NCBI RefSeq assembly: GCF_017347085.1
Contig: NZ_JADPSA010000029.1
Span: forward strand, 434,001 to 498,000
DNA from: Nesterenkonia sp. E16_10
Lineage (GTDB): Bacteria; Actinomycetota; Actinomycetes; Actinomycetales; Micrococcaceae
Direction of reading: 5' to 3'
DNA: 64,000 bases
Positions 9,569-31,418 of this stretch are shown here, in pieces. The notes under the pieces are model-generated. The model had not been told where the DNA came from. It did no database searches and saw only the letters and a list, made by a program, of their open reading frames with translations. The translations under genes and the position numbers were made by a program. How positions within the stretch are numbered: the first letter of the stretch is position 1; every line of letters begins with the position of its first letter.

Positions 9569-10735
9569 TCACACTCCGCCGGACTCGGCGGGGCTGGGCT
9601 GGAAGTCTTCCAACCGCTCCCCGAGCCCGAACATCGCCGCGATCGCCGCCACGGTGCGCTGCGCGGCGTGGCCGTCGCCGTAGGGGTTCACCGCATTGGC
9701 CATCGCGGAGTACGCCTCCGGGTCATCGAAGAGCGCGGCGACCTCTTCGACCACTCGTTCCTCGGCGGTGCCGATGAGCCGGACGGTGCCGGCGTCCACG
9801 GCTTCGGGGCGTTCGGTGTTGTCCCGCATCACCAGCACCGGCTTGCCCAGGGAGGGGGCCTCCTCCTGCACGCCCCCGGAGTCGGTGAGCACCACGGTGG
9901 CCAGATTCATCAGCCGGGTGAACTCGCCGTAGGGCAGCGGCTCGGTGACGATCACGTTCTCGTGCCCGGCCAGGGCGGGAAGGATCGCTTCGCGGACCAC
10001 CGGGTTGCGGTGTGCCGGGAGCACGATCAGCTTCTCGGGGTACCGGTTGGCCAGGCGGGCCAGCGCGCGGCCCACGCCCTCCATGGCGGAGCCCTGGTTC
10101 TCGCGGCGGTGGGTGGTCACCAGCAGGACGTCCCGGCCCGAGGCCGCCGCGTCCTCGAGCTGAGCATCGGCGAACGGCACATGCTTGCTCGCGACCTCGA
10201 GCAGCGCGTCGATCACGGTGTTGCCGGTGACCACGATGTCCTGGGCCGGCAGCGCCTCGCGCAGCAGGTTGTCCCGGGACTGCCCGGTGGGAGCCAGGTG
10301 CAGCGCGGTGATCTGGCTGGTCATCTTGCGGTTCGCCTCTTCGGGGAACGGTGAGTAGAGGTTGAACGAGCGCAGCCCGGCCTCGGCGTGGATCACCGGA
10401 ATCCCGGAGTAGAACGCAGCCATCGCGCCGGCGGTGGTGGTGGTCGTGTCTCCCTGGACGACGACGGCGTCGGGCTTGTTCCTCGCGAAGATCGCGTCCA
10501 GGCCGATGACCGTGCGGGTCAGCACCCCGTTGAGCGTCTGCCTCGGCTGGATGATGTTCAGGTCATGGTCCGGCACGATGCCGAAGAGCTCGTTGACCTG
10601 GTCCAGCATCTCGCGGTGCTGGCCGGTCACGGTGACCTCGCAGTCGAAGAGCTCGCTGGCCTGCAGCGCCTTGACGATCGGTGCCATCTTGATGGCCTCG
10701 GGACGTGTCCCGTAGATGGGCATGATTCGCTTCAT
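9569..10735 (-). CDS. wecB: UDP-N-acetylglucosamine 2-epimerase (non-hydrolysing)
   Basis: A 388-residue cytoplasmic enzyme that interconverts UDP-GlcNAc and UDP-ManNAc. It shows YGTRPEAIKMAP at the N terminus, VQGDTTTTTAG, HAEAGLRS with PEEANR, and DSGGVQEEAPSLGKP with RDNTERPEA near the C terminus, all diagnostic. The start at 10735 fits the family; an upstream ATG at 10777 would add a tail not seen in WecB proteins. It is divergent from a glycosyltransferase gene and supplies the precursor for the dehydrogenase at 19.8-21.1 kb, so it belongs functionally to the polymer island even though smc follows it. Confidence 0.94.
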   Translation of the reverse strand: MKRIMPIYGTRPEAIKMAPIVKALQASELFDCEVTVTGQHREMLDQVNELFGIVPDHDLNIIQPRQTLNGVLTRTVIGLDAIFARNKPDAVVVQGDTTTTTAGAMAAFYSGIPVIHAEAGLRSFNLYSPFPEEANRKMTSQITALHLAPTGQSRDNLLREALPAQDIVVTGNTVIDALLEVASKHVPFADAQLEDAAASGRDVLLVTTHRRENQGSAMEGVGRALARLANRYPEKLIVLPAHRNPVVREAILPALAGHENVIVTEPLPYGEFTRLMNLATVVLTDSGGVQEEAPSLGKPVLVMRDNTERPEAVDAGTVRLIGTAEERVVEEVAALFDDPEAYSAMANAVNPYGDGHAAQRTVAAIAAMFGLGERLEDFQPSPAESGGV

Positions 10736-10904
10736 CGGTGATGCCTGTCCCTTCGCGCGCCTGGTGTCTGGCCCCAAGCCTAGCTTCCCGTGCCGACATG
10801 GGGCCGGTCTAACACCCAGGCATCCGGGATCGGAGCGAGTATGCCGGTAAACTCGGGCATCGTGTCAGCACCGGAATCCGGATGGTGCAGGAAAGGGATT
10901 GATT

Positions 10905-13748
10905 TTGCGCTCAGGTTCGACGCGTTCGTTGCGTGGCCTTCGTCAACGACTCACGCGGACCCATTGGGTCGCGCTGGGGGTCTTCATCGCTGTTGCGGCG
11001 CTCAGCACCGTGGCCGCCGCGCTGCAGTGGTGGCCGGTCGTTGTCGTCGGGATCTCGGTGATGCTGCTGCTCTCGCTGGCGGTCTCGATCTACGGGTTCA
11101 GCAGCCTCTCCCGACGGCTGCTCGCCCAGACCGGGGACATCTCCCGGCAGCTGCGCAGAGAACGCAAGAACCAGACCCTCGGGACACCCGCCGGCGCTGT
11201 CGCAGCCGGACACGATTCCACCACGGCGTATTGGGCTCAGCAGGTCCGCTCGGTCAAGGGGCAGCTCTCCTGGTTCACCAACCTGGCGATCCGCAACCGG
11301 CTGACCGGTGCCCGCGACGTGCTCGCGCACGCTGCCACCAATGGCCGCCATGACTTCACCCAGCTCGGCGATCTCCTGGAGTCCTGGCGCATCCCGATGC
11401 ACCGGGACAGTGCCGAGAAGGAGCTCATCGGCAGCACCTGGAAGCCTGGGCTGATCAATCTGGCGCGGGTGCTCTACTCCCAGCGTGTCACCGAGATGGA
11501 CCTGCTGGATGCCTTGAGCATCTATGAGCTGCTGCATCGCGAGCACGGCCCGAAGGTGCTCTCCGGGGTGGACCGCTCGTACTTCGCTGACCTACTGACC
11601 TGGAAGAAGCGGTTCCCCGAAGCGATCGAGGTGCTCGAGTCCGCACCCGCGCAGGGCACCGATCGCAGCTACAGCCAGGGCTTCCTGAAGCTCAACGCCA
11701 TCAACCCCAACGTGACCTCAGATGCGCGACGACGTCTCGAATGGCTCGAATCGATCAACGAGCTGCTGGCCGAGAGCGGCCTCAGCCCCGTCGGCGTCAA
11801 GAATCCCGAGGCGCCGTCCTTCTTCGAACTGACCGCCGAGACTCCTGATGCGGGAGTTCCGGTGGAGGAGCAGCCTCTGGTCAGCATCATCATGCCGATC
11901 TACGAGCCGGACGACTCCACAGACCTCGCCATCGAATCACTGCTGCGGCAGAGCTGGCGCAACCTGGAGGTCATCGTCATCGACGACTCCTCCCCCACCC
12001 ATGACCGCGAGGGCGTTCCCACCGACTATCGCGCTCGGCTGCAGCGCTGGGCCGATCATGACGACCGTGTCCGGCTGGTGCTCTGCGAGGAGAACCGCGG
12101 CGCCTATGCGGTGCGCAACGACGGCTACGACCTGGCCCAGGGCCTCTTCGTGACGATCGCAGACAAAGACGACTGGCATCACCCGCAGAAGATCGAGCTG
12201 CAGGCCACCGAGCTTCTCCACGACAGCTCGGTGAAGGCGAACCTCGGCAACTGGGTCCGCGTCAGCGAGGATCTCGAATTCCTCGTGCGCTGGGGCCCTG
12301 ACCGGGTGGTCCACCCCAGCTTCGCCTCCCTGATGTTCCGCCGCGAAGAGATCCAGCAGACCCTCGGGTACTGGGACACGGTGCGGAAGTCCGGCGACGG
12401 CGAGTTCAAGTTCCGGTTCCAGCTTGTCTACGGCGTGGAGCTGCAGCCGACGATCAAGGCGCCGCTCGCCTTCTCCTTGATGGGCGCCGGCAACCTCACC
12501 AGTTCAGACCTCGGTCTGGGGTACCGCCACGATGATCGCCACGCCTATCAGAGGGCGTACCGGGACTGGCACGGGCAGATCGAACGCGGTGAGGCCTCGG
12601 CGTACATGCCGAAGCACCCCGCCGTGCGGCCCTTCGTCGCGCCGCGGAGCTTCCTTCCGCAGAAGTCCGCAGAGCCTCCGGCCTATGACGTCATCTACCT
12701 CTCCGAATTCGGCTTCGAGGCCGGAAACTCCAGCGTCCTGCTCCAGGAGATCACCACCTGCCTGGACGCCGGGCTGCGGGTCGGTGTGATCCCGATCGAG
12801 AACGGCCTCATCGCGTCCGCCTCGAAGCGTCACTTCGTCCCGGCCCTGGAGCGTCTGGTCCTCGACGGACGGGTCGACCGGCTTTCCGTGGCGCAGTCTG
12901 CCCGCACGAAGCTGCTTCTCATCAGATGGCCCGCGTGCATGCAGCTGGCGCTGGGCACCCGATCCGAACTGGTCGCCGACCGGATTCTTGTGGTGGCCAA
13001 CCACATGCCCTACGAGCTTGCCGGAGACCGCCGCAGCTACGATGTGCGGGCGGTCACCCGCAATGTCGCTGCCACCTTCGGCGCAGCCCCAGAGTGGGCC
13101 GCCGAGAGCGAACGGCTGCGCGAGTACATCCAGGACCTCGTGCCCTCCGGCCAGCTGGCCGACGGCGCATGGAAGGGCATCACCGTCCCGCTGAGCGCAG
13201 AGTCTCGCAGCACCCGGGTCCCTTCTGAGGACCGGATCCCGGTGATCGGGCGTCATGGGCGGGACCACCCCGGCAAGTGGCCCTCGACCAAGTCCGACTT
13301 CCTCAAGGCCTATCCGATCGACGGCTCGGTCGGGGTCACGATCCTGGGCGGGGCCAGCACACCGATCAAGGCCGGTTGGCTGCCTGAGGAGCTCCCGCAG
13401 AGCTGGACGGTGCACGCGTTCAACGGCATCGAGGTCTCGGACTACCTGCGCGGCCTCGACTTCTTCGTGTATTACCACAGCGATGAGCTCGTCGAAGCGT
13501 TCGGGATGGCGATCCTCGAGGCGATGAACCATGGTGTCGTCTGCGTGCTGCCGCCGCATTTCGAACCCGTCTTCGGTGAGGGTGCCGTCTACGCGACGCC
13601 GCGCAATGTGCAGGCGACGATCAGCGGACTCCGGGATCCCCAGCGCTACGAGGAACAGCGCCAGAAGGGGCTCGACTTCGTGCGCGCCGAATGCAGCCCT
13701 GCCGCGTACCTCGCCCGGCTTCGGCCATACGGGATCGGTCCTGCGTAG
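10905..13748 (+). CDS. Two-domain glycosyltransferase (GT2 plus GT-B/GT4-like) with N-terminal membrane anchor
   Basis: About 947 residues. Two adjacent hydrophobic segments lie within the first 70 residues, then an alpha-helical, TPR-like region, then a GT2 domain from about residue 322 (LVSIIMPIYEP, VIVIDDSSP, metal-binding DKDDW). From about residue 594 a second fold begins (DVIYLSEFGFEAGN) and ends in a GT4-type donor site, EAFGMAILEAMNHG near 863. I chose TTG 10905 because AAAGGG lies seven bases upstream; a TTG at 10899 is too close to it. It shares this architecture with the gene at 17.2-19.7 kb. The likely role is assembly of a surface glycopolymer, possibly adding two sugars. Acceptor and sugars are unknown. 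Confidence 0.8.
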   Translation: MRSGSTRSLRGLRQRLTRTHWVALGVFIAVAALSTVAAALQWWPVVVVGISVMLLLSLAVSIYGFSSLSRRLLAQTGDISRQLRRERKNQTLGTPAGAVAAGHDSTTAYWAQQVRSVKGQLSWFTNLAIRNRLTGARDVLAHAATNGRHDFTQLGDLLESWRIPMHRDSAEKELIGSTWKPGLINLARVLYSQRVTEMDLLDALSIYELLHREHGPKVLSGVDRSYFADLLTWKKRFPEAIEVLESAPAQGTDRSYSQGFLKLNAINPNVTSDARRRLEWLESINELLAESGLSPVGVKNPEAPSFFELTAETPDAGVPVEEQPLVSIIMPIYEPDDSTDLAIESLLRQSWRNLEVIVIDDSSPTHDREGVPTDYRARLQRWADHDDRVRLVLCEENRGAYAVRNDGYDLAQGLFVTIADKDDWHHPQKIELQATELLHDSSVKANLGNWVRVSEDLEFLVRWGPDRVVHPSFASLMFRREEIQQTLGYWDTVRKSGDGEFKFRFQLVYGVELQPTIKAPLAFSLMGAGNLTSSDLGLGYRHDDRHAYQRAYRDWHGQIERGEASAYMPKHPAVRPFVAPRSFLPQKSAEPPAYDVIYLSEFGFEAGNSSVLLQEITTCLDAGLRVGVIPIENGLIASASKRHFVPALERLVLDGRVDRLSVAQSARTKLLLIRWPACMQLALGTRSELVADRILVVANHMPYELAGDRRSYDVRAVTRNVAATFGAAPEWAAESERLREYIQDLVPSGQLADGAWKGITVPLSAESRSTRVPSEDRIPVIGRHGRDHPGKWPSTKSDFLKAYPIDGSVGVTILGGASTPIKAGWLPEELPQSWTVHAFNGIEVSDYLRGLDFFVYYHSDELVEAFGMAILEAMNHGVVCVLPPHFEPVFGEGAVYATPRNVQATISGLRDPQRYEEQRQKGLDFVRAECSPAAYLARLRPYGIGPA

Positions 13749-13764
13749 CTCGAGGGCGGAGCGT

Positions 13765-15849
13765 GTGTCTGAGATGCCCACAAGCGCCCAGGCACGCCCT
13801 GCCGTCACGGACCAGAGCCTGACGCACAACCTCCCCGAACGCCGGTTCCGTCCAGAGCTCCACGGGGTGCGTGGTCTGGCGATTCTTGGGGTGGTGCTGT
13901 TCCATCTCTTCGGAGCCGGCCGGGTCTCGGGCGGCATCGACATCTTCCTCGCGGTCTCGGGATTCCTCTTCACCGGTATGCTGCTGCGCGAGTCTGCTGC
14001 CGGTGCAGGCCCCATCGATATCGCGCGATACCTGGCTCGCATCGCGCGACGGCTCTTGCCCGCCGCTGCGATCGTCATCGCCACGACTCTGGCCGTCGGG
14101 CTCTTCCTTTTCCCCAGTACTCGACATGAACAGCTCTGGGCAGAGGCCCGGGCCTCGTTCCTGTATTTCGAGAACATCGAGCTGATCAACTCACAGCTGG
14201 CCTACGGCGCCGCAGGGCTTGGGACCAGCCCGTTCCAGCACTTCTGGTCGCTCAGTGTCCAGGGGCAGTTCTACCTGGTCTGGCCAGTTGTCGCCGTGAT
14301 GTCCGTGCTGCTCGCCCGCAGGCTCAAGAGGCCTGCCGTACACGTGATGACCCTCCTGGTCGTGCTCATCATCGCCGCATCCTTCGTCTTCACGCTCTAC
14401 ATGCAGACGATGGATCAGGACCAGGCCTATCTCATGACGCGCACGCGCTTCTGGGAGCTGGCGTTCGGCGGGCTTCTGGCTCTCGTCGCCTCATCGATCG
14501 CGCTGCCCTCTCGACTGCGCTTCCTCGCGGGATGGCTAGGCGTCGGTTTGATCGTCACCTGTGGCTTCGTCCTCGATGGGGCCTCGCTGTTCCCGGGACC
14601 CTGGGCACTGTGGCCCCTGGCAGGGCTCACACTGGTGATGCTCTCGGCCAACGGCGGGCTGGGACTGGATGAGTCCAGAGCCAGCGCTGCGACGTTCCTC
14701 TCCAACGGCTTCTTCGCCTGGATCGGCAACGTGGCGTACGGGCTCTATCTCTGGCACTGGCCGCTGTTGATCTTCTATCTTGAGGCGCGAGACCGAGAAG
14801 CGATCGGCGTACGCGGCGCCGCAGCGGTCTTCGCCGTCTCGCTGCTGCTTGCCTGGGCGACCTACCGGTGGATCGAGCTGCCGATGGGCCGCACGAAGGT
14901 CCGGGAAAGGGCACAGCTCGGTGCCGCTGCAGTGGTCCTGGCTGCTGCGGGAGTTGCCTCCACGTTGGTTCTGAACCAGCTGACGCCTGCGATCCCAGAG
15001 GGCTATACCATGTCTGGAGTCGACCGCAGCGACTACCCCGGTGCCGCCGCCGTGGGTGACGCCCAGCGCGTCGATGCAAGCATCGACTTCTTCCCGGAAC
15101 CTAACGAGCTGAGCGCGAGCGAACCAATGTTCGCGACCTGGGGCTGCGAACAGACGCACCTGGATGAACCTGGCTCGGATGAGGTGCTGGTCTGTGAGGA
15201 TCCGGATCCACCGGCGGAACCTGCCGCGACGATCATGCTCACCGGAGGCTCCCACTCTGCCCACTGGTACAACGCACTCGCTCTCCTGGCCGAGGAGCAC
15301 CGCTGGGAGCTCATCGTGGCAAACAAGTCTGGATGCAGACTTCGAGGAGCGGAGGATGAGGACAGGGACGACTGCGTGAGGTGGAACGAGAACCTGCTCT
15401 CCGTGGTGGAGGAGCGCCAACCTGACCTTGTGATCTCCACCGGAACCGCTCTGTACCGCAGTGGAAGCGAGGAGAAGATCACCCCAGGCGCGGAAGATCG
15501 CTGGAACCAGATCGTGGAGACCGGCGTTGAACTGCTTCTGATCCGGGGAACAGCACGTCCAGACGAGAACGTCCCCGACTGCCTCGCCGCTGGCGGAACT
15601 TCAGAGAGCTGCGGCGTCGATCACAGCATCTACGCCGAGCAAGATCTCCTCGCTGAGATCGCTCAGACCGAATCCATCTATTCGATCGACATGACGGAAT
15701 ACATCTGCCCTGAGGATGCGTGTCCCGCAGTCATCGGCAACGTCGGTGTCTACCGAGACGACAGCCACCTGAGCTCCCACTACGTGGAGACCCTTGCTCC
15801 CTATCTCGATGAGCGGATCAGGGCCGAGCTGCCTGAACTGTACCGCTGA
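13765..15849 (+). CDS. Acyltransferase-3 membrane protein with C-terminal SGNH domain (GGSH variant)
   Basis: About 694 residues. The N-terminal half is an OafA-like acyltransferase-3 domain: RPELHGVRGLAILG with FHLFGAG, then about ten membrane helices. The C-terminal part is an extracytoplasmic SGNH domain with a block I of TGGSHSAHW in place of the usual GDSH, and a DDSHLSSHY block V. The GTG at 13765 has GAGGG eight bases upstream; an in-frame ATG at 13774 is the alternative. The gene follows the glycosyltransferase by 16 bases, so they form one operon. It probably O-acylates the polymer on the cell surface. It is a close paralogue of the gene at 27.2-29.3 kb. Confidence 0.85.
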   Translation: MSEMPTSAQARPAVTDQSLTHNLPERRFRPELHGVRGLAILGVVLFHLFGAGRVSGGIDIFLAVSGFLFTGMLLRESAAGAGPIDIARYLARIARRLLPAAAIVIATTLAVGLFLFPSTRHEQLWAEARASFLYFENIELINSQLAYGAAGLGTSPFQHFWSLSVQGQFYLVWPVVAVMSVLLARRLKRPAVHVMTLLVVLIIAASFVFTLYMQTMDQDQAYLMTRTRFWELAFGGLLALVASSIALPSRLRFLAGWLGVGLIVTCGFVLDGASLFPGPWALWPLAGLTLVMLSANGGLGLDESRASAATFLSNGFFAWIGNVAYGLYLWHWPLLIFYLEARDREAIGVRGAAAVFAVSLLLAWATYRWIELPMGRTKVRERAQLGAAAVVLAAAGVASTLVLNQLTPAIPEGYTMSGVDRSDYPGAAAVGDAQRVDASIDFFPEPNELSASEPMFATWGCEQTHLDEPGSDEVLVCEDPDPPAEPAATIMLTGGSHSAHWYNALALLAEEHRWELIVANKSGCRLRGAEDEDRDDCVRWNENLLSVVEERQPDLVISTGTALYRSGSEEKITPGAEDRWNQIVETGVELLLIRGTARPDENVPDCLAAGGTSESCGVDHSIYAEQDLLAEIAQTESIYSIDMTEYICPEDACPAVIGNVGVYRDDSHLSSHYVETLAPYLDERIRAELPELYR

Positions 15850-16137: not shown

Positions 16138-17244
16138 TCAGGATTCGTTCTTCCGGGTCAGCACGCCGAGCCGACTCAGACCCTTGTCCTCCTGGACGAG
16201 GTCCGTGAAGCGGCTCAGCCAGGATTTCAGGATCTTCACTTCACCCTCGCGGTGGGTGTCATCCAGGACCACCGAGGCGTGGCCTGAGAGCCTGTCCCAC
16301 AGGACAGGAACTGCGGGGAACCGTGCACGTGGACCCGTGGACTCGGGCGGGCCGTCGATGATCAGGAAATCGATCTGGTCCAGGCTGGAGATTGCGTCTC
16401 TTGAGTACCACTCGAAGCTCTTTCCGTCGAGCTCGTAGGTCTCCAGGGGCGCCACTCGAAGATCCACAACATCCTCAAGTCCGTGCCGCTTCAGTCCTTC
16501 TCGTGTTCGCGATGCATACCCTTCCAGGTGATCAAGAGAGATCAGCTGTATTCCCAGTTCGCGGCAGAGATATGCCATCCAGATCGTTGAGGTGCCGCTT
16601 CCAAGTTCAAGGATTCGCCGGGGTCGCTTGGTTCGAATGAGGTGCAGCAGGTGCAGCAGAGCCTGAGCGTCGAGGGCAAAGTTCCCGGTCGGGGGCATCG
16701 GCGCTCGACGGTCGGCAGCGCCACTGGCGAATAACTGGAGCAGCGACTCAACCTGCAGCACGGTCTCCCTGCTCTCCCGCGTGGACTGGTTGGTCAGCTT
16801 CTTCGCCGAATCTTCCATCGAGAGCCGGGAGACCTCTGTGCCAGCCAGGATCCTACGTTCGGCCTCTTCGAGTCGCACCCGAAGCTGCCGAATCCGATCA
16901 ACATCGCCGGCAGACTTCGCAATGCGCGCTTCGTTCTTGTTATGTGTCGTCTTCAAGTCCGTCCGCATCACGGCGAGCTTCTCTTCAATCGCTGCCTGTC
17001 GGGCCGAGACCTTGGAGAGTTCCCTGTGCGTCTTCTCATCCGCACGCTTCGTAGCGGTGGAAGCCCGACGCAGTTCTCGCAGAACTGCATACTGGACCCG
17101 CAGGACGAGCACGCTCAGGAGGCCCAGGGTGAGGAGAACCGTAACAGCCGCGACCCACAATCCGGTGTCCTCGACGGTCAAAAGGATGACGGCCACTCCT
17201 GCCACCAGCAGCGCTGCGGCGATGAGCGCCTGTTTTCTAGACAT
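16138..17244 (-). CDS. Membrane-anchored class I SAM-dependent methyltransferase
   Basis: About 368 residues. The N terminus has two hydrophobic segments (AALLVAGVAVILL and a second one ending near residue 50), then roughly 100 residues of charged coiled coil, then a methyltransferase domain. Its SAM-binding loop is ILELGSGTSTIWMA, followed by LISLDH and DFLIIDGPPEST, like the Methyltransf_24 family. ATG 17244 overlaps the end of the upstream glycosyltransferase gene by eight bases; an in-frame ATG at 17286 is possible and neither has a strong ribosome site. Position in the island suggests methylation of a sugar or polymer end. Methylation as a chain-length or capping signal is known for some O-antigens; here it is only inference. 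Confidence 0.75.
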   Translation of the reverse strand: MSRKQALIAAALLVAGVAVILLTVEDTGLWVAAVTVLLTLGLLSVLVLRVQYAVLRELRRASTATKRADEKTHRELSKVSARQAAIEEKLAVMRTDLKTTHNKNEARIAKSAGDVDRIRQLRVRLEEAERRILAGTEVSRLSMEDSAKKLTNQSTRESRETVLQVESLLQLFASGAADRRAPMPPTGNFALDAQALLHLLHLIRTKRPRRILELGSGTSTIWMAYLCRELGIQLISLDHLEGYASRTREGLKRHGLEDVVDLRVAPLETYELDGKSFEWYSRDAISSLDQIDFLIIDGPPESTGPRARFPAVPVLWDRLSGHASVVLDDTHREGEVKILKSWLSRFTDLVQEDKGLSRLGVLTRKNES

Positions 17245-22490: not shown

Positions 22491-22497
22491 ATGCTCC

Positions 22498-23652
22498 CTA
22501 AGCTCTCTGGATGAACAGGTCGACGATCCCCTGGGCGACCTGACGCGAGGCACCGAATGTCGGGTAGAGGTGCAGCTGCTGACTGGCGCGGTCATTGACT
22601 CCTATGACGACGCCGCGCGAGGAGGAGATACGGGGTACGGAGATGTCGATGCCGGCTGCCAGCATTCCCGGGATGGCCCACCGGGCCTCGATCGCCAGCT
22701 GCTTCAGGGCAGGGTCGAGCCTGTTGGTGACGTCGAGGCTGAGCCCACCCCGTTGCATGCTCGGGCCTTCCTGGAGACGACATACCTCCCCGGAGCCCGG
22801 TATGGCCTTCGGGGAGATTCCGAGCCGCTCGAGGCGTCCCTCCAGGACGTTCTCCCGGGGCGTCAGTCGTCTGAGCAGCGCGTGCTGGTCCCGCCATGCA
22901 TACAGCTCCTCGATGAGTTCCCCCACCGGATGGATCCCGTCTCCTAGAACGAACATGGGCAGCCGGACCACGGCCCCGACGACGTTCTCCCCCGTCACGA
23001 AAACCCGAAGGGCGAGTCCGGCGTCGTCAGGTTCCACGAGGAGCTGATCGACTCCCTCCCCCGCCAGTGAAGCAGGGTCCCAGGGACGCGGTGGTTCTGC
23101 TTTGGTCGCAGCCGCGGCCGCCGAGCGCCACGCTGCGAGAAACCGCTTGCCATCGCCCACGCCGGTAGACACGCCGGCACCAGAGGTCCGTCCGTTCGGC
23201 TTCACCGCGACGAGGCCGTCGAGCGACTTCATATACGCCTCAGCGGCATCCCGATCCCCTGCGCTGAAGACGCGTCCCTCCGGCACCGGGAGTCCGGCAC
23301 TCTGCAGGTGGGCCTTCACCGAGCTCTTTGTCAGCAGGATGCGCTCAGCCAGGTCACTGGTCAACGAGGTTCCATCCCCGTCCCGGCCGCCGATGACCTT
23401 ACCCTCCCGGGTATATATCCGGCAGCGGTCATTCACCTTGGTTCCTTTGACACCGCGGCTCTTCAGCGGCGTCCAGAAGATTCCTGAGGTGTCCAAGATC
23501 TTGGTCGGTCGATTGACCGCGGAGAGTCTCGGCAGGATCTCTTCTGCGATGACCTTCTCCAATGGACTGTGTCCACCGGTCCCTGACGCAGCCACGGAGG
23601 CGGGCCAGGACAGTGCGGGCTCGTCGGTAGGGGTCTCGGGCATAGGCTCCAT
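22498..23652 (-). CDS. ATP-grasp protein resembling the cyanophycin synthetase central domain, altered metal site
   Basis: About 384 residues. Features shared with the ATP-grasp domain of cyanophycin synthetase are VAVKPNGRTSGAGVSTG, LVEPDDAGLALRVFVTGE, FVLGDGIHPVGEL and RGGLSLDVTN. The usual metal-binding IEVN motif near the C terminus reads VIGVNDRA, so the conserved Glu is Gly, and the proline-rich continuation is also lost. The neighbour at 23.7-24.9 kb keeps IEVN. This copy may therefore be inactive, or act as a partner subunit. Start 23652 is uncertain; an ATG at 23643 is also in frame. Confidence 0.7.
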   Translation of the reverse strand: MEPMPETPTDEPALSWPASVAASGTGGHSPLEKVIAEEILPRLSAVNRPTKILDTSGIFWTPLKSRGVKGTKVNDRCRIYTREGKVIGGRDGDGTSLTSDLAERILLTKSSVKAHLQSAGLPVPEGRVFSAGDRDAAEAYMKSLDGLVAVKPNGRTSGAGVSTGVGDGKRFLAAWRSAAAAATKAEPPRPWDPASLAGEGVDQLLVEPDDAGLALRVFVTGENVVGAVVRLPMFVLGDGIHPVGELIEELYAWRDQHALLRRLTPRENVLEGRLERLGISPKAIPGSGEVCRLQEGPSMQRGGLSLDVTNRLDPALKQLAIEARWAIPGMLAAGIDISVPRISSSRGVVIGVNDRASQQLHLYPTFGASRQVAQGIVDLFIQRA

Positions 23653-23687: not shown

Positions 23688-24851
23688 TCAGTGTCTCTGG
23701 CCAGGGAGTCCGAAGCGGCGCCTCCACGAAGGCCGTTCCACGGCTCCCGCAGCGGCAGGCGCTGACTCAGCGGACCCGGCCTGGTGGGGCTTCGAGGACC
23801 CCGGGTCGGCCAATGCCCGGATCAGGAGGTCCGCTGTATGGCGTGGCCTGCCGTAGGCGGGGGCGTCGTGGACCAAGAGATTGGGGCTCGTATTGACCTC
23901 GATGACGCTCGCACTGTGCGCGGCCCTCAGATCCGGCATCAGAACGTCGACGCCGGCGAAGTTCAGTCCCGGCACGGCCGCGGCGGCGGCTTCCGCCAGC
24001 GCCAGCGCATCTGCAGGGATCGCTTCTGTGAGATCCACTGCCACGCCACCCTGCGACAGGTTGGCGGTCCCATTGAGGAACTGCACGCTTCCAGCGGCCG
24101 GCACATCACCGAGGGCGGCATGACAGCGCTGGAGATAATGTTCGTCCACCTTCACCGCTCGGCTTCTGAGGTACACATGACCCTCCCGGGCGAGCCTCAA
24201 TCGATCGGCCAGTTCCTGAATGGAGCTTTCGCCGTCGCCGATGACGAAGGGTGGGATCCTCGTCGCTGCGGCCACTGCGCGACCAGCAACGATGAGGATA
24301 CGAACGTCCACCCCGGGCACTTCTTCCTCGATGAGCACGCGCCCGCTCTTGGAGTGTTCCAGCGCGTTGGTCCACGCAGGCGAGAGATCTTCCGGGTCCA
24401 CAACGCCGGTGGTGATGCCAAGCCCCTGACGCCCGTCCGCAGGCTTGACCACCTGGCGCCTGCGCCCCTGAGCCTCGAGGTAGGTCAGAGCTGGGGTCCA
24501 CTCCGATGCCCCGAATTGTTTCGCCGGCGGAGTCGGCAGCCCGGCCCGGCGGAGGACAGACTTGGTGAGGTTCTTCGAGGCTGCGACCAGCTGTGCGAAG
24601 CTGCTGTTCATCGAAGGAGTTGCGCCCATGAGACCACCGACGCAGCGCCCCTCGTCGAAGAGCAGGACGTTCTTGCCTGAGCGCTGGGAGACGAGACCGT
24701 GTTCCGCTGCGGCCGCAAGGATCGCTTCCGTGTGGGCCAGAGGCTGTCCACCTTCACTGAACTGCAGCCATCGATCCCGAAGATGCTCTTCCACGAATGT
24801 CACGTTGACCGACTCTGGGGTCGCCCCTTGAACATCAGTTGCGTGATCCAT
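23688..24851 (-). CDS. ATP-grasp ligase resembling the cyanophycin synthetase central domain
   Basis: About 387 residues. The ATP-binding elements are VVKPADGRQGLGITTG and VLIEEEVPGVDVRILIV. FVIGDGESSIQELAD, ANLSQGGVAVDLTEAIP, FAGVDVLMPD and VIEVNTSP follow, the same order as in the central ATP-grasp domain of CphA, with metal-binding Glu and Asn intact. The Mur-ligase-like third domain of CphA is absent, so this is a stand-alone ligase. The start is either 24851 (AAAGG five bases upstream) or 24872. It probably attaches an amino acid to a carboxylate in the surface-polymer pathway; the substrate is not visible. Confidence 0.75.
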   Translation of the reverse strand: MDHATDVQGATPESVNVTFVEEHLRDRWLQFSEGGQPLAHTEAILAAAAEHGLVSQRSGKNVLLFDEGRCVGGLMGATPSMNSSFAQLVAASKNLTKSVLRRAGLPTPPAKQFGASEWTPALTYLEAQGRRRQVVKPADGRQGLGITTGVVDPEDLSPAWTNALEHSKSGRVLIEEEVPGVDVRILIVAGRAVAAATRIPPFVIGDGESSIQELADRLRLAREGHVYLRSRAVKVDEHYLQRCHAALGDVPAAGSVQFLNGTANLSQGGVAVDLTEAIPADALALAEAAAAAVPGLNFAGVDVLMPDLRAAHSASVIEVNTSPNLLVHDAPAYGRPRHTADLLIRALADPGSSKPHQAGSAESAPAAAGAVERPSWRRRFGLPGQRH

Positions 24852-24947
24852 AACTCCCTTTCTGGGGATCATTGCAGGGACAGCCTCGGGGGCTGAGGTG
24901 CGGGCCCCTCCATAAGTCTGGGATACAAAGCTGTCCGGACTCAGTCG

Positions 24948-27074
24948 TCAGTCATTGAGGAACTGGAGTTCGTCTGCCTTCCGGAACTCCTCTTCCATGT
25001 GGGAGGCGAGAGAGCGGGCATAGGTCGCCGTGAGGTGATGCGAATCCCTGTAGACCAGGACCGAACCGATGATCGGCGCACATTCCTGCTCCGGACAGAT
25101 TGCGTCGGTGAGATCCACGGGCGTCGCCCCGCTGGACTCCGCGGCCGCACTCTGTTGGCCGTAGCCGCTCGCCTCGATCGCCTTTTCGCGGTCGGCGGCG
25201 CACTCCTGAAGATCTTCAGGGTGCTCTGCCACGCATTCGGGAAGATCGATCTGGATTCGGGGAGTATCCAGCAGCACCGTCACCGGGATTGAATCCTCTT
25301 CCAGTTCCCGCCACACCTGCGAGTATCCATCTTCCACGCTCCCCGTAGGCACAGATTCGGGTGCGTCCTCCGCGGGGTTGTAGCGAGAGGCGCTCACGAT
25401 GACGTGGTCCATGTCGTCCCGGTCACGGAGAGTCTCAGCCATGCGCTGTCCCCATTCGTAGCACTCTTCGTAGAAGCCGTCCTCGCCGGCCAGAGCAACC
25501 CCGTTGAGTGAGCAGGCCGACTTCGTGTAGGTCTCCAGCCTCCATCCCTGGGCCTCCGCTATCGGCAGTAGCCCGGGCAGCCAATGCGCGGCGTGGGAAT
25601 CACCGACCAGCGCGACGACATAGTCGGATTCGGAGTCACCGAAGACACATGGTTCCACGTCGACCTCGCTCTGCTCCTGGTGACACCCGCCCTCGTACAG
25701 GGAGGGGACGTCATCGACTGCCTCCTCGACTCGGGGTTCGAAGGAGCCCACCTCATCGACCATCTCCCCCGCTGAACCGTCGCTGTACAACGCTTCCGCG
25801 CCGAGCGCGGAAGATGGTCCTTCTGCGCTGTCCCCACTCAGTGAGCTCACGGCAATGAGCATCGCGACACCGAGCAAGGCAGAGGCGAGCATCATCGCCA
25901 GTCCCACCTTGATGGCCCGCCAGGGCATGCTCGCCACATAACTCCAGTGCCTGAACGGAGTCTCGACGTAGGTGTAGCTCAACCATGCCGGCAGCAGCGC
26001 GAACACGACGATGAGAAGGCCATATCTGAAACGCAGCTCATCGTCCATCAGCTGAGTGCCGAGAACCAGGAGCGGCCAGTGCCACAGGTAGAGCGAGTAG
26101 GAAACGTCACCCACCCAGGTCATGGGCTTGAGCGCGAGAAGTCTCGCCGCTCCCGACTCGGCACGTCCTGCCATGCCCCCGACGATGACCGCAGCTGCCC
26201 CTAGAGTTGGCAGCAACGCGGCGATGCCCGGAAACGGTGTTGCACTCGAGTACGCCACCGCTGCGATGACGATGCACAACAGACCGCCCACCTGCAGGCT
26301 TGACGCCACCCGCGAAGGAAGACGCTCCAGGTAGACGGCGAACACCGCGATCCCCGCCCCGATGCCGAGTTCCCAAAGACGCGTGGTCGTCACGAAGTAG
26401 GCGCGTGCCGGCTCAGCGGCGGTCCAGTAGACGGACCAGGCCAGCGAGGGGAGGATCATCAGGGCGACGCCGAGCTCCAGCGATCTGCGGATCCTTCGCC
26501 GGTTCCGCTCGGGTGACTGCGGCAGTGCGGTCACATCACGCAGCTTCTTGACGGCGAAGAGCAGGCCCACGATCACCAGCGGCCAGAGGATGTAGAACTG
26601 TTCCTCCACCGCCAGGGTCCAGAAGTGCTGGAGCGGACTGGCCACGGTTTCCGCGTTGAGGTAATCGGTATTGGCCGCGAAAACCCAGTTCGCGTAGTAG
26701 AGCGCACTGCCGACGAGGTCGTGGCCGATGTCTTCCCAACGAGTCCGGGGAAGGATCAGCACTGTTGCGATCGCTGTGAACCCGAGAACCACGGTCGCCG
26801 CTGGCAGGATCCGGCGGATACGCCGCGCGTAGAAGTCCGCCAGATCAACTCTGCCGGTCTCGAGGCTCTGACGCAGCAGCATGCCCGTGATGAGGAACCC
26901 GGAGATCACGAAGAAGACATCCACCCCGACGAACCCTCCGCCTAGGAAGGGAGCGCCGGCGTGATAGAGCAGAACGAGGCCGACCGCGATAGCCCGCAGA
27001 CCCTGGATGTCGGGTCGGTACCTGGACGGGGCGTGCGCAGTAGCTGCGACCGGTGAGATCACCGCTGCGGTCAT
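24948..27074 (-). CDS. Acyltransferase-3 membrane protein with C-terminal SGNH domain (canonical GDSH)
   Basis: 708 residues. The N-terminal acyltransferase-3 domain opens with RPDIQGLRAIAVGLVLLYH and GFVGVDVFFVISGFLITG, followed by about ten membrane helices. After an acidic linker the SGNH domain has VALVGDSHAAHW (nucleophile Ser) and YRDSHHLTATY (catalytic Asp-His). AGGAG lies eight bases before the ATG. This is the standard OafA/SGNH layout used for O-acetylation of surface polysaccharide. It is the first gene of the minus-strand run leading to the ATP-grasp genes, the dehydrogenase, a glycosyltransferase and the methyltransferase, and is divergent from the next acyltransferase gene. Confidence 0.9.
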   Translation of the reverse strand: MTAAVISPVAATAHAPSRYRPDIQGLRAIAVGLVLLYHAGAPFLGGGFVGVDVFFVISGFLITGMLLRQSLETGRVDLADFYARRIRRILPAATVVLGFTAIATVLILPRTRWEDIGHDLVGSALYYANWVFAANTDYLNAETVASPLQHFWTLAVEEQFYILWPLVIVGLLFAVKKLRDVTALPQSPERNRRRIRRSLELGVALMILPSLAWSVYWTAAEPARAYFVTTTRLWELGIGAGIAVFAVYLERLPSRVASSLQVGGLLCIVIAAVAYSSATPFPGIAALLPTLGAAAVIVGGMAGRAESGAARLLALKPMTWVGDVSYSLYLWHWPLLVLGTQLMDDELRFRYGLLIVVFALLPAWLSYTYVETPFRHWSYVASMPWRAIKVGLAMMLASALLGVAMLIAVSSLSGDSAEGPSSALGAEALYSDGSAGEMVDEVGSFEPRVEEAVDDVPSLYEGGCHQEQSEVDVEPCVFGDSESDYVVALVGDSHAAHWLPGLLPIAEAQGWRLETYTKSACSLNGVALAGEDGFYEECYEWGQRMAETLRDRDDMDHVIVSASRYNPAEDAPESVPTGSVEDGYSQVWRELEEDSIPVTVLLDTPRIQIDLPECVAEHPEDLQECAADREKAIEASGYGQQSAAAESSGATPVDLTDAICPEQECAPIIGSVLVYRDSHHLTATYARSLASHMEEEFRKADELQFLND

Positions 27075-27183
27075 GGGGTTGCTCCTAGAGTAAAATCCAG
27101 CAAGAGAGCTTCCGCTCAGTACGCATTCTTCTTGGTCACTCCGCCACGTCCAGCCTGGCGTCCATCGGATAGCCTAGGCCACA

Positions 27184-29298
27184 ATGCCTCGAACGATCTT
27201 CATGACGTCTCCGCGCGCCTCCAGAGCTGACGAGCCTGCGGCAGGCGTGCTCCCTGAACGTCGCCACCGTCCGGAGCTGCACGGTCTGCGTGGACTGGCC
27301 ATCGCCGGCGTCGTGCTGTTTCACCTCTTCGGTGCGGGCAGGGTCTCCGGGGGCATCGACATCTTCTTGGCCATCTCGGGCTTCCTGTTCACCGGCATGC
27401 TGCTGCGGGAGGCGGGGTCGACCGGGAAGATCGACTTCCTGCGCTACTTCGTGCGACTTGCGAAGCGGATCCTAGCCCCGGCCGCGCTGGTCATCGCGGT
27501 CACCACGATGGCGGGCCTGATCTTGCTTCCGCTCACCCGACACGCCCAGCTCGTCACCGAGGCGCGCGCCTCGCTGCTCTACTTCGAGAACTTTGAACTG
27601 ATCCGATCCCAGCTGTCCTACGAGGCGGCTGGCGCAGAGACCAGCCCTTTCCAGCATTTCTGGTCCCTCTCCGTCCAGGGGCAGTTCTATCTGATCTGGC
27701 CCTCGGTGGCTCTGCTCGCCGTCTGGCTGGCTCGGCGGTCCCGGTTCTCCCCCACCGCCACGATGGCGACGCTGATCATGCTGCTGATGATCGCCTCCTT
27801 CGCGGCCGCGCTGGTCCTCCAGCAGCAGAACCAGGCAGAGGCGTATCTGCTGACCCAGACGCGGATCTGGGAATTGGGCTTCGGCGGGCTGTTGGCCCTG
27901 TTCGGGGCCAGGGTCGTGCTTCCACGCGCCGCGCGCACGACGGCGGGCTGGCTGGGCCTGGGACTCGTGGTCAGCTGTGGCTTCGTCCTGGACGGGGCGG
28001 CGCTCTTCCCCGGACCCGCGGCGCTGTGGCCCCTTATGGGTATGGCGCTGATCCTGGTCTCGACGGCTCCTCCCAGCTCGGATGAGCCGGATCGGCCGCG
28101 CACCGCCGCGGCGCTGCTGTCCACGACTCCGTTCACCCGACTCGGTGACATCGCCTACGGGCTCTTCCTGTGGCATTGGCCGCTGGTCATCTTCACCCTG
28201 GAGTTCCACGGGGACTCCGGGCTGAGACTGACCGACGCGGTGATCGTGCTCGCTCTCTCCCTGCTGCTGGGCTGGGCGACTCACCGTTTCCTCGAGCAGC
28301 CCCTGGCGCGCAGCTCCAGCATCGGGAACGCACCACGGCCGAGGAGGGCGATGACCCTGGGCCTGGCCGCAAGCACACTGGTGGTAGGTGGCCTCGGAGC
28401 TACGGCCTACGTCCAGAAGACCACCGCCCCTCAGGAAGACGGCCTGGCCATGGCCGGGGTGGATCGCATGCTCTATCCCGGCGCAGACATCATCCATACG
28501 GAAAACTCCGCCCGTGACGTCGAGTTCTACCCGGAGCTGGGCGGCATCTCCCGACGCGTGCCCGAATACGCGCGCACCGACTGTCACCAGCCCACCGGGG
28601 ATCAGCCGGGATCCGGAGAGGTGCTGGTCTGCGAGGATCCCGCTGCGCCGGAGAACCCCGCCAAGACCATCATGCTCGCCGGCGGCTCCCACGCCGGGCA
28701 TTGGCACAACGCGTGGATCATCCTGGCCGAGAAGCACGACTGGGAGGTGCTGGTCGCCACCAAGGGCGGATGCGTGTTTCGCGGTCTCGACACCGAGGAT
28801 CCCAACACCTGCGACGAATGGCTCGCCGGCTTTCCCGAGGTTCTCGCCGAACACCAGCCCGACCTGGTGGTGACTCCTGGCACCGCAGTCCCCCAGGAGA
28901 CCGGCACCGAGAGCATCCATGAAGGTGCCGAAGAGCAGTGGCAGGCGATCACAGACGCCGGGTCGGAGCTGCTGCTGCTCCGTGGAACACCTCGGCAGGA
29001 GCACAATGTTCCCGACTGCCTGGCCGAGGGCGGAGACGAGCTGGACTGCGCCCCGGACTACGGCAAGTACGCGGAGGTCAACCCGCTGAAAGATCTGGAC
29101 CTGCCCGAGAACACCTACAGCCTGGATCTCACCGATCACTTCTGCCCTGACCGGGAATGCTCGGCCGTGATCGGCAACGTCCTGGTCTACCGAGACAGCC
29201 ATCACCTGACCAATGAATACGTCGAGACCATGGTCCCGCATCTGGAGCGCGAGCTTCGGGAATCCATCCCCGATCTGTTCTCCTCGCAGGCGAGCTGA
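27184..29298 (+). CDS. Acyltransferase-3 membrane protein with C-terminal SGNH domain (GGSH variant)
   Basis: 704 residues, a close paralogue of the protein at 13.8-15.8 kb. Both share RPELHG, FHLFGAGRVSGGIDIF, SPFQHFWSLSVQGQFYL and a C-terminal SGNH domain with GGSHAGHW in place of GDSH; block V is YRDSHHLTNEY. About ten hydrophobic helices separate the ends. The start is ATG 27184 or ATG 27202; no strong ribosome site precedes either. It heads the plus-strand run containing the ABC exporter, 147 bases upstream of it, which ties acylation to export. Confidence 0.85.
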   Translation: MPRTIFMTSPRASRADEPAAGVLPERRHRPELHGLRGLAIAGVVLFHLFGAGRVSGGIDIFLAISGFLFTGMLLREAGSTGKIDFLRYFVRLAKRILAPAALVIAVTTMAGLILLPLTRHAQLVTEARASLLYFENFELIRSQLSYEAAGAETSPFQHFWSLSVQGQFYLIWPSVALLAVWLARRSRFSPTATMATLIMLLMIASFAAALVLQQQNQAEAYLLTQTRIWELGFGGLLALFGARVVLPRAARTTAGWLGLGLVVSCGFVLDGAALFPGPAALWPLMGMALILVSTAPPSSDEPDRPRTAAALLSTTPFTRLGDIAYGLFLWHWPLVIFTLEFHGDSGLRLTDAVIVLALSLLLGWATHRFLEQPLARSSSIGNAPRPRRAMTLGLAASTLVVGGLGATAYVQKTTAPQEDGLAMAGVDRMLYPGADIIHTENSARDVEFYPELGGISRRVPEYARTDCHQPTGDQPGSGEVLVCEDPAAPENPAKTIMLAGGSHAGHWHNAWIILAEKHDWEVLVATKGGCVFRGLDTEDPNTCDEWLAGFPEVLAEHQPDLVVTPGTAVPQETGTESIHEGAEEQWQAITDAGSELLLLRGTPRQEHNVPDCLAEGGDELDCAPDYGKYAEVNPLKDLDLPENTYSLDLTDHFCPDRECSAVIGNVLVYRDSHHLTNEYVETMVPHLERELRESIPDLFSSQAS

Positions 29299-29445
29299 CC
29301 CGGTGGTGATCGGGGACGCTGATAGACTCGCAGGCGCTCAGCCGGTCCTGCACCTCGAGTCCGCGCGTTTCGCAGAACGAGGCAAGATGACAGCGAGAAC
29401 GAGACGGTATACCTGCCGGATCGAGGCATCAGGAAGGAAACGACC

Positions 29446-30384
29446 ATGGCCGCACCTGCTCTAGAGCGCGCCGGTGGACCCACGGAGTCGGGCGACGCTC
29501 GCAGGGTCGCTCAACTTGATGGCAGCAATCTCATCCGGGTGGGCGCCCGTCCCGGGCTCTTCCGCTACATCCGGGAGATCTGGTCCTTCCGCCACTTCCT
29601 GTATTACGACTCGCACTCCCGCGTCTCCTCGGCCAACAGCTATGACTCGCTGGGCCGGATCTGGATGATCCTGAATCCGGTCCTGTTCGGGACGGCCTAC
29701 TTCTTCGTCTTTGGGCTGCTGTTGAACACCGGCCGCGGGATCGACAACTTCATCGGCTACCTGATCATCGGCGTGTTCACCTTCCGGTTCTTCACCGCGG
29801 CGGTCTCAGGCGGCGCCAATGCCATCGCGGGGAACCAGAAGGTCGTCCAGGCGTTCAACTTCCCGCGAGCCTGCCTGGTCATCTCCACCACGGTCCGCGA
29901 GCTCTTCTCGAGCATCCCGATGTTCTTCGTGATGGCGCTGCTGGTGCTGAGCATCGGGGACATGCAGCTCGGCGGGGCGGAGTCGATCCCGATCACCCTG
30001 ACCTGGCACTGGCTGCTCTTCTTCCCCTGCATCGCGCTGGCCCTGATGGTGATGCTCGGCTGGTCGCTGGCACTGGCCCGTGCGGTCAACGCGCACAACG
30101 ACGTCAAGCACCTGATCAGCTTCAGCACCCGGATCCTGTTCTACACCTCGGCGGTCTTCTTCTCCGCGGATCGCTACGCTGACCTCGGCGTGGAATGGCT
30201 GGACACCGTGATGAGCCTGAACCCGCTGTTCTGCGTGCTGGACATCCTCCGCCATGCCTGGCTCTACGACGGCTTCGCCGATCCAGGCCGCTGGATCGTC
30301 CTGGGATCCTGGGCCGCGGGCTCCATGGTGATCGGATTCCTGATCTTCTGGCACGGTGAAGAAAGCTACGGGAAGGAACGATGA
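29446..30384 (+). CDS. ABC-2 type polysaccharide/teichoic-acid exporter permease (TagG/Wzm-like)
   Basis: 312 residues with six hydrophobic helices typical of ABC-2 permeases. The segment LGRIWMILNPVLFGTAYFFV and the repeated aromatic-rich helices match TagG/Wzm proteins, which flip lipid-linked polymers across the membrane. AGGAAGGAAA precedes the ATG. The stop overlaps the ATPase gene start (ATGA), giving a coupled pair. The protein would carry the island's polymer to the cell surface. Polymer identity is inferred from the neighbours, not from this sequence. Confidence 0.88.
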   Translation: MAAPALERAGGPTESGDARRVAQLDGSNLIRVGARPGLFRYIREIWSFRHFLYYDSHSRVSSANSYDSLGRIWMILNPVLFGTAYFFVFGLLLNTGRGIDNFIGYLIIGVFTFRFFTAAVSGGANAIAGNQKVVQAFNFPRACLVISTTVRELFSSIPMFFVMALLVLSIGDMQLGGAESIPITLTWHWLLFFPCIALALMVMLGWSLALARAVNAHNDVKHLISFSTRILFYTSAVFFSADRYADLGVEWLDTVMSLNPLFCVLDILRHAWLYDGFADPGRWIVLGSWAAGSMVIGFLIFWHGEESYGKER

Positions 30385-31418
30385 GCACCTCAACCCGCCC
30401 GGCGCGACGTCAGGGAAGAAACACCGAGGCAGACCTGATCGCTGAGGATCTTGCCATCGAATTCGACGACGATTCCTCCGGTCCCCCCGAGGACCGGGAC
30501 GACCACCCCTTCACCCAGCAGCGCCCGGTGATCCAGGCAGTGGATCCGAAGAACGTGTGCATGGTTGTCGACGATGCCTCCATGACCTACCGGGTGCGCT
30601 CCTCCACGGGCAACAACAATTCCGGGGGTCGGATCTCCCGCGGCCTCAAGCGCATCACCGGCGCGGGCTGGGCCGAGGTCCACGCCCTCTCCAACCTGAG
30701 CTTCATCGTCAATCGCGGAGAATCCGTCGGAGTGATCGGCACCAACGGGTCCGGCAAGTCCACCCTGATGAAGCTGCTCACCGGCAAGGTCCGCCCCACC
30801 AGCGGCGAGGTCTATGCCACCTCGACCCCGGTGATGCTCGGAGTCAACGCCGCCCTGGTCAAGGAGATCTCCGGCCGGGAGAACATCCGGCTCGGCTGCC
30901 TGGCCATGGGCCTGACTCCCGAGCAGACCGCGGCGAAATACGATCAGATCGTGGAGATCTCCGGGCTCTCCGATGCCCTGGAGATGCCGCTGAAGACCTA
31001 CTCCTCGGGCATGTCCTCGCGTCTGCAGTTCGCCATCGCGACCTCGGTGGACCCGGACATCCTCTTGATCGATGAGGCCCTGAACACCGGTGACGCGCAG
31101 TTCCGGGCCCGCACCAAGGAACGCCTCGACGAGGTGCGCGCCAACGCCGGCGCGGTCTTCCTGGTCTCGCACTCCCTGGGCACCATCAAGCAGATGTGCA
31201 CCCGGGTGATCTGGATCGAACAGGGCGAGATGCTCGCCGACGGCGACCCACAGTGGGTCTGCGAGCAGTACGAGGAGTACACCTCACACAAGTCCAACGG
31301 ACGCACCCGAGCGGCCAAGGTGGTCTACGAGCGCACCCGCCTGCGGCTGGACCCGGTCAAGATCGACTTCACCTCCGGCTCCCGGCCGAAGAAGGCCGGC
31401 AGCAGCCGCATTCGCTGA
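30381..31418 (+). CDS. ABC exporter ATPase (TagH/Wzt-like)
   Basis: 345 residues. An N-terminal acidic extension of about 60 residues precedes the ABC domain: Walker A GTNGSGKST, the relaxed signature YSSGMSSRLQFA typical of polysaccharide-exporter ATPases, and Walker B ILLIDEALNTGD. The segment after the ABC domain is short and there is no Wzt-type carbohydrate-binding domain, so export is probably not coupled to recognition of a capped chain end by this subunit. It forms the ATPase half of the transporter with the preceding gene. Confidence 0.9.
   Translation: MSTSTRPARRQGRNTEADLIAEDLAIEFDDDSSGPPEDRDDHPFTQQRPVIQAVDPKNVCMVVDDASMTYRVRSSTGNNNSGGRISRGLKRITGAGWAEVHALSNLSFIVNRGESVGVIGTNGSGKSTLMKLLTGKVRPTSGEVYATSTPVMLGVNAALVKEISGRENIRLGCLAMGLTPEQTAAKYDQIVEISGLSDALEMPLKTYSSGMSSRLQFAIATSVDPDILLIDEALNTGDAQFRARTKERLDEVRANAGAVFLVSHSLGTIKQMCTRVIWIEQGEMLADGDPQWVCEQYEEYTSHKSNGRTRAAKVVYERTRLRLDPVKIDFTSGSRPKKAGSSRIR

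Follow-up and report, generated by a model that had tools for sequence, protein, structure and literature searches.

What does the 22-kb island at positions 9569-31418 of the window build, and is it one gene system or part of a locus that varies between strains? The window is the whole stretch of DNA analysed here, 64,000 nucleotides of Nesterenkonia sp. E16_10 (contig NZ_JADPSA010000029.1, positions 434,001 to 498,000, forward strand), a genus placed in Micrococcaceae. A sequence-only reading had listed for the island wecB, a UDP-sugar dehydrogenase, two fusion glycosyltransferases, three acyltransferase-3/SGNH proteins, three ATP-grasp proteins and a Wzm-Wzt exporter. Profile searches found all of these, as well as a Methyltransf_24 gene at 16138-17244 that the list had omitted. 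The genes (labels as in Table 1) follow each other as wecB, GTA, AT1, MT, GTB, UDH, TupA, ATPgX, ATPgY, AT2, AT3, wzm and wzt. The single gene system of that reading did not hold: the island is a surface-polymer type locus of Nesterenkonia, with a fixed site between smc and folC and a middle that is exchanged between strains. As for its product, we lean towards the cassette at this exchangeable locus making an acidic uronate copolymer with amino acids capping its acid groups.

The ends of the locus are constant. SMC and FolC matches were each found in 29 of the 30 genomes of the genus, the two proteins share 95% and 98% identity with their counterparts in N. aurantiaca (G152), and the smc-folC gap ranges from 5.6 to 23 kb in 23 genomes. 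The intervals of 23 of the 30 genomes, our own included, were compared together with that of N. muleiensis (L089) as the 24th; G151, G156, G161, G162, G167, G169 and G170 were left aside for split contigs and missing or broken genes. Since the codon-score gene caller had been trained partly on island genes, presence was counted by tblastn (E 1e-10), keeping the best-scoring query at each place. Three components, wzm, wzt and a cyanophycin-synthetase-like ATP-grasp gene, occur in all 24 loci, wecB and any acyltransferase-3/SGNH gene in 14 each, a GTA-like gene in 17 (over 800 aa in 13), MT in three and GTB in two. The smallest locus (G138) has, as island matches between smc and folC, only wecB, one ATP-grasp gene, wzm and wzt. 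Other cassettes encode rhamnosyltransferase-, pyruvyltransferase-, pectate-lyase- and asparagine-synthase-like proteins, together with sugar-transfer-associated ATP-grasp proteins. A search for the gene grouping in relatives, which the sequence-only reading had proposed, recovers the same families together in other Micrococcales families (see below) and the same cassette in just one of the other 23 loci, that of G107 (MT 75%, GTB 74%, UDH 96%, TupA 83%, ATPgX 82% and ATPgY 89% identical). In N. aurantiaca, wecB and wzm are 99% and 98% identical to ours and the AT3 counterpart 93%, yet the ATP-grasp protein is only 38% identical. One fixed conserved machine is ruled out by these swapped middles, and a decayed island by the open frames in the window and by cassette genes that are 74-96% identical in G107.

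Synonymous codon usage was scored against the 115 other called genes of the genome. By this measure wecB, wzm, wzt, GTA and AT3 look ordinary (z -1.0 to +0.9), whereas the block of eight genes that runs from AT1 through AT2 is atypical (z between -2.2 and -5.3; AT1 -2.7, AT2 -3.2, GTB -5.3); we read the middle of the locus as acquired by transfer. A polymer locus exchanged across a whole genus would hint at pressure on the surface from phages or toxins. In G089 (L037:1020-4406), the locus contains a wecB-like fragment and a duplicate of the first 131 smc codons (98% identical), possibly as the footprint of a cassette exchange.

Table 1. Genes of the island, with positions in the window, strand and the model or evidence behind each assignment
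Gene	Assignment	Position	Strand	Model or evidence
wecB	Non-hydrolysing UDP-GlcNAc 2-epimerase, constant end beside smc	9569..10735	-	TIGR00236
GTA	GT2 + weak GT4 fusion glycosyltransferase, hydrophobic N-terminus	11010..13748	+	PF00535
AT1	Acyltransferase-3 with SGNH domain	13891..15849	+	PF01757 + PF19040 over cut-off
MT	Methyltransf_24 methyltransferase, two predicted transmembrane helices	16138..17244	-	PF13578 43.9 bits, cut-off 26.3
GTB	Helical domain + GT-A (GT2) + GT-B (GT4-like) fusion glycosyltransferase	17237..19624	-	PF00535, structure model
UDH	Nucleotide-sugar dehydrogenase, probably UDP-ManNAc 6-dehydrogenase	19824..21101	-	TIGR03026
TupA	TupA-like ATP-grasp amidoligase, long N-terminal helix	21237..22490	-	PF14305
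ATPgX	Cyanophycin-synthetase-like ATP-grasp module, Gly for Glu at second metal site	22498..23652	-	NF010623, below cut-off
ATPgY	Cyanophycin-synthetase-like ATP-grasp module, metal-site residues kept	23688..24803	-	TIGR02068, below cut-off
AT2	Acyltransferase-3 with SGNH domain	24948..27074	-	PF01757 + PF19040 over cut-off
AT3	Acyltransferase-3 with SGNH domain, adjoins exporter	27247..29298	+	PF01757 + PF19040 over cut-off
wzm	Wzm/TagG-type permease	29539..30384	+	PF01061 36.3 vs cut-off 26.9
wzt	Wzt/TagH-type ATPase	30381..31418	+	PF00005 76.4 vs cut-off 25

The starts in Table 1 are those favoured by codon usage, and several starts in the list of open reading frames lie upstream; for GTA, for instance, the longer frame from 10899 would bring in one more hydrophobic segment (judged by eye). 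Neighbouring genes are tightly packed in places, with overlaps of 8 bases between MT and GTB and of 4 bases between wzm and wzt, and gaps of 7 bases from TupA to ATPgX and 35 bases from ATPgX to ATPgY. On the left, wecB is flanked by smc, and on the right wzt is followed by ndk, a DUF4233 gene, folC and ileS. Wzt also matches the TagH model PRK13545 (E 1.8e-53, below the cut-off of that model).

For the product, a uronate-containing, amide-decorated and O-acylated polymer exported by Wzm-Wzt is the reading best supported. TupA, the UDH clade, the fusion glycosyltransferases and Wzm-Wzt lie together in other families, and in Campylobacter jejuni capsule synthesis a TupA-like domain amidates the carboxylate of the uronate just added to the growing chain (glucuronate, GlcA), before the chain receives its next sugar (PMC11800379, PMC13276843; sources cited here and below, unless their main text is named, through excerpts). 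The acylated, amino-acid-decorated acidic polymer of the sequence-only reading gains support from both lines, the exact substrate of UDH excepted. Because this set of gene families turns up jointly in further families of Micrococcales, the grouping in the island is beyond chance. In an even sample of 396 Micrococcales genomes (TupA at E 1e-15, UDH at E 1e-100), TupA was found in 20, UDH in 63 and both in 14, our own included; with our own excluded, UDH is present in 13 of 19 TupA genomes where 3.0 are expected (hypergeometric 1.4e-7). Taking the nearest TupA match per genome, chosen by eye, TupA and UDH are at most 50 kb apart in 12 of the 13 shared genomes and at most 20 kb apart in 11 (46 kb in G211, 237 kb in G215). 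These 13 genomes span five families besides our own, five of them belonging to one genus (g55). Two or more cyanophycin-type ATP-grasp matches, a subset picked after the table had been inspected, occur in nine genomes, our own included, and in seven of these UDH is on the same contig within 17 kb, the others being G012 and G500. UDH adjoins wzm in L094, L125, L127, L130, L141, L154, L155 and L156. Fuller groupings include L152, in which UDH (directly beside wecB), wecB, wzt, wzm, GTB and MT fall within 11 kb; G377, with UDH (62%), wecB (60%), wzt, wzm, a nearly full-length GTB (37%) and MT (44%) together; and a 21-kb stretch of Ornithinimicrobium laminariae with three TupA matches, UDH (60%), fusion glycosyltransferases, wzm, wzt and an AT2-type acyltransferase.

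What is observed is the set of genes, the swapping at the locus, the deviant codon usage of its middle and the co-occurrence of families; every chemical step below is our inference. WecB and UDH would supply UDP-N-acetylmannosaminuronic acid (UDP-ManNAcA), and the GT2-GT4 fusion enzymes would extend a lipid-linked primer with an alternating repeat. In GTB, the predicted model (mean predicted local distance difference test, pLDDT, 81.8) has an N-terminal helical domain, a GT-A domain and a GT-B domain. The modelled GT-A domain is closest to heparosan synthase 2, a uronate polymerase (Z 29.9, root-mean-square deviation 2.3, 260 residues, 27% identity), and the modelled GT-B domain resembles BshA (Z 22.9) and TarM, with Z of 22 to 23; the C-terminal part gave no Pfam match, so that its GT-B fold is known from the predicted model. 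GTA is 28% identical to GTB over 821 columns, and its C-terminal part matches PF13692 at E 0.00034, below the cut-off. GT4 enzymes are retaining. The GT2 part would add a beta-linked uronate and the GT4 part an alpha-linked neutral sugar. Pairing an inverting GT2 with a retaining GT4 would fit a repeat that holds one link of each kind, beta and alpha, like the beta-ManNAcA/alpha-Glc repeat of Micrococcus luteus, a member of the same family as Nesterenkonia. If so, these fusion enzymes are candidate single-protein copolymerases. By analogy with Cj1438 and HS19.11 of C. jejuni, TupA would couple the newly added uronate carboxylate to an amine, probably an amino acid, before the next sugar. ATPgY may add or extend an amino acid, and ATPgX would be a partner with an altered metal site. 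Hydropathy predicts membrane-spanning sequence in GTA and two transmembrane helices in MT, the latter followed by a coiled-coil-like stretch (read by eye); the putatively membrane-bound MT may cap the chain. Export would be by Wzm-Wzt and O-acylation, on the outside, by the acyltransferase-3/SGNH proteins, while an LCP protein from elsewhere in the genome would attach the polymer to the wall.

The observations that weigh against this reading concern the spread of its key genes, the dehydrogenase, the ATP-grasp proteins and the counts themselves. TupA was found in 6 and UDH in 3 of the 24 smc-folC loci, so the proposed chemistry is not a general one of the locus. Likewise, matches of the island's type of UDH occur in just 9 of the 30 genus genomes (54-100% identical; fragments in G149). 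While WecB is clear (TIGR00236, 460 bits, cut-off 210), the "WecC-type" dehydrogenase of the sequence-only reading stands at the subfamily level, as UDH passes the test for nucleotide-sugar 6-dehydrogenases (TIGR03026, 423.4 bits, cut-off 189.8), and falls at the equivalog level, where it scores 258.3 bits against the WecC cut-off of 459 (NF008286/PRK11064). A protein over that cut-off (567 bits) is encoded at C29:424801, outside the island and about 8 kb left of the window, flanked on both sides by acyltransferase-3/SGNH genes (L077:2384-8255, that is C29:422383-428254). The genome thus encodes a second and more secure supplier of UDP-ManNAcA, which leaves room for UDH to act on some other UDP-sugar. 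In N. aurantiaca (L093) and in an uncultured relative (L092), the WecC-equivalog gene has a TupA homologue no more than 4 kb away.

It is therefore conceivable, although we think it unlikely, that the polymer is indeed an aminouronate polysaccharide but UDH makes another UDP-aminouronate (UDP-GlcNAcA or UDP-GalNAcA), while wecB provides ManNAc or ManNAcA for a different polymer, together with the WecC at C29:424801. Beyond the equivalog scores, 11 of the 14 wecB-bearing loci have no UDH in the locus, and wecB differs from UDH in having ordinary codon usage. However, the best solved relatives of UDH are Cap5O (E 4e-67), which we take to be a UDP-ManNAc dehydrogenase, and 4r16, named a UDP-ManNAcA dehydrogenase, both ahead of a GalNAcA enzyme, and UDH directly adjoins wecB in L152 and is separated from it by about 4 kb in L156. 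With either dehydrogenase type counted at E 1e-30, all 18 genus genomes with wecB also have a dehydrogenase, compared with 1 of the 12 without wecB, and the two genes form adjacent pairs in G155 and G169; the pair may simply follow one clade. That wecB only serves TagA as a linkage-unit gene was rejected, since wecB tracks the UDP-sugar dehydrogenase and not the TagA family, which is present in 12 of 18 genus genomes with wecB and 4 of 12 without (p 0.13).

Turning to the ATP-grasp proteins, the three of the sequence-only reading are one TupA and two cyanophycin-synthetase-like modules. TupA matches PF14305 at 50.7 bits (cut-off 25), best over profile positions 127-239 of 241, and its ATP-grasp-type residues K161, E213, D309 and E321 are invariant in 13 of 13 homologue rows. 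Its predicted model, of moderate confidence (pLDDT 73.9), shows an ATP-grasp fold like that of RimK and Ddl with a long N-terminal helix; the best Foldseek matches are RimK, PsnB, ArgX and Ddl (best E 1.1e-7, template modelling scores 0.25-0.46). On the other side, its profile searched against solved structures gave chance-level rows and no convincing match. ATPgY (184 bits, E 3.4e-54) and ATPgX (105 bits) fall below the cut-off of 850 of the whole-enzyme model TIGR02068 and match its ATP-grasp part alone, and thus are not whole cyanophycin synthetases; ATPgX matches NF010623 at E 9.5e-33, also below cut-off, and ATPgY the structure 7lg5 at E 1e-34. The metal ligands of cyanophycin-type ATP-grasp modules are Asp, Glu and Asn. 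ATPgY keeps all of them, ATPgX has Gly in place of the second metal-site Glu, and its G107 orthologue has the same residue there. Across 19 rows of the family, this position is Glu in 3, Asp in 12, His in 2, Gln in 1 and Gly in 1. Judging from these residues, the ATPgX family may be inactive or altered, and the "three amino-acid ligases" may be one or two.

These features give room to a quite improbable alternative, in which the ATP-grasp proteins make a separate small peptide, osmolyte or signal, or assist the exporter without being catalytic, and in which chance or shared regulation has brought them to the locus. An ATPgX-type protein accompanies Wzm-Wzt in all 24 loci, even without any glycosyltransferase-, UDH- or TupA-like match (L055), most proteins of this type have an altered metal site, and outside the multi-copy genomes the ATP-grasp family is weakly linked to UDH. 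Against this, TupA is tied to UDH across six families, our own included, the divergence of the ATP-grasp protein from N. aurantiaca beside near-identical wecB and wzm is expected if it is matched to a variable polymer, and the clusters of relatives carry Mur-ligase, PGA_cap and asparagine-synthase-like proteins. Present throughout the loci examined and mostly altered at its metal site, this ATP-grasp family clearly invites enzymology.

Related genomes inflate all of the counts, the order sample being even but uncorrected for phylogeny. At the thresholds used, 49 of 63 UDH genomes have no TupA and 6 of 20 TupA genomes no UDH. When all ATP-grasp matches are taken, their association with UDH is weak (18 of 63 other genomes versus 9.9 expected, p 0.003), and UDH is present in 12 of 55 genomes with a single copy; many of the matches sit in longer, single frames, which may encode cyanophycin synthetases or other synthetases.

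Whether the polymer would be attached to the wall is a further point. A TagF-type teichoic acid locus was ruled out, as no TagB/TagF-family (PF04464) match was found at E 0.001 in the draft genome, which is 98.75% complete. A conventional O-acetylated capsule or exopolysaccharide with the same chemistry and no link to peptidoglycan is possible but rather doubtful: the island has no LCP gene, the three LCP matches being on other contigs, while the exporter is TagGH-like and the genome has LCP and TagA-family genes.

More tentatively still than the product of this cassette, we suggest a widespread, undescribed class in Micrococcales, with aminouronate polymers that receive amino acids or short peptides from sets of ATP-grasp enzymes (TupA-like and cyanophycin-synthetase-like) and serotype-like exchange in Nesterenkonia. 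As part of the same suggestion, some families would add Mur-ligase, enolase-superfamily (dipeptide-epimerase-like) and PGA_cap partners, and each Nesterenkonia cassette its own ATP-grasp protein, in most cases with an unusual metal site. In the UDH clusters of other families, the ATP-grasp module is fused to enolase-superfamily and Mur-ligase domains (L150), to acylphosphatase (L149) or to leucine-rich repeats (LRR) and PGA_cap (L145); in a second L145 protein, PGA_cap and LRR are combined with a MurF-like ligase that scores under the MurF cut-off. The dehydrogenase is at least 16 kb away in L145 and within 1 kb in L150. By their domains, these partners appear to be peptide-forming or capsule-type parts, which makes the peptide reading broader than this window. 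Three proteins of 1,575-1,608 aa at L145:6429-17536 and L150:8280-13007 combine PGA_cap, LRR, Mur-ligase, enolase-superfamily and ATP-grasp modules in various ways, and the smc-folC interval of G012 (L054:1312-4722) encodes a 1,136-aa protein joining LRR repeats, PGA_cap and a cyanophycin-type ATP-grasp module.

Several parts of this picture are already known: amino-acid-amidated ManNAcA, uronate amidation by TupA-like domains, the teichuronopeptide of Bacillus halodurans and variable loci in Streptomyces. Thus, the "new type" of wall polymer of the sequence-only reading was overstated, as the capsules of Haemophilus influenzae type d and Pasteurella multocida type B contain ManNAcA with Ala/Ser/Thr or Gly amide-linked at C6 (PMC10627249), the same decoration as proposed here, on Gram-negative capsules. 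The C. jejuni HS:2/HS:19 capsule (Cj1438, HS19.11) shares a TupA-like ATP-grasp protein that amidates uronate on the growing chain and is coupled to a GT2; according to the excerpts, it differs in its amine (serinol-phosphate), its uronate (GlcA) and in being a Gram-negative capsule, and its amidase is fused to the GT2, whereas TupA is a separate gene in the Nesterenkonia island. In three Nesterenkonia loci (L058, L061 and L062), TupA overlaps a fusion glycosyltransferase by 4 bases, a separate-gene version of that fusion, while TupA of the window lies instead between ATPgX and UDH. The teichuronic acid of M. luteus has beta-linked ManNAcA alternating with alpha-linked glucose (PMC3005890). 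Its synthetase subunits, 52.5 and 54 kDa, do not agree in size with GTA and GTB (calculated masses 101.7 and 89.9 kDa), and the term "amino acid" is absent from the main text of that paper. The teichuronopeptide of the alkaliphile B. halodurans, polyglucuronate with poly-gamma-glutamate (PMC8153356), shares the TupA homologue and an acidic uronate polymer with amino acids; on the other hand, no PGA_cap or Mur-ligase domain was found among the island proteins (a genome-wide search was not made). The utr loci of Streptomyces are likewise variable actinobacterial loci for teichuronic acid-like aminouronate polymers, with a core and varying genes, but use a ManNAc3NAcA pathway, place the polymer on wall teichoic acid and, in the excerpts of the source, come with no mention of ATP-grasp (PMC13274773). 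A peptidyl-teichuronate, if real, would be a bacterial counterpart of pseudomurein, in which a peptide is linked to a uronate (PMC11915815).

New, as far as our literature search shows, are the gene combination in a swappable Gram-positive locus, the constant presence of an ATP-grasp protein in the loci examined and the association of TupA with UDH across the order. No Nesterenkonia wall-polymer analysis was found in that search (title level, with subscription journals mostly missing), and no description of this gene set in the literature on ATP-grasp clusters (titles and abstract starts of part of the matches). If right, the reading extends amino-acid or peptide decoration of Gram-positive wall uronates beyond Bacillus and offers genes for it. 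As Nesterenkonia is haloalkaliphilic, an amidated acidic polymer would also bear on the handling of surface charge in such organisms.

A second polysaccharide cluster lies about 54 kb left of the window, at C29:372642-379619 (L083:12643-19620). It encodes a sugar transferase, two TupA-like ATP-grasp proteins in tandem, a weak flippase-like match, a GT2 and a TagA/WecG-family protein.

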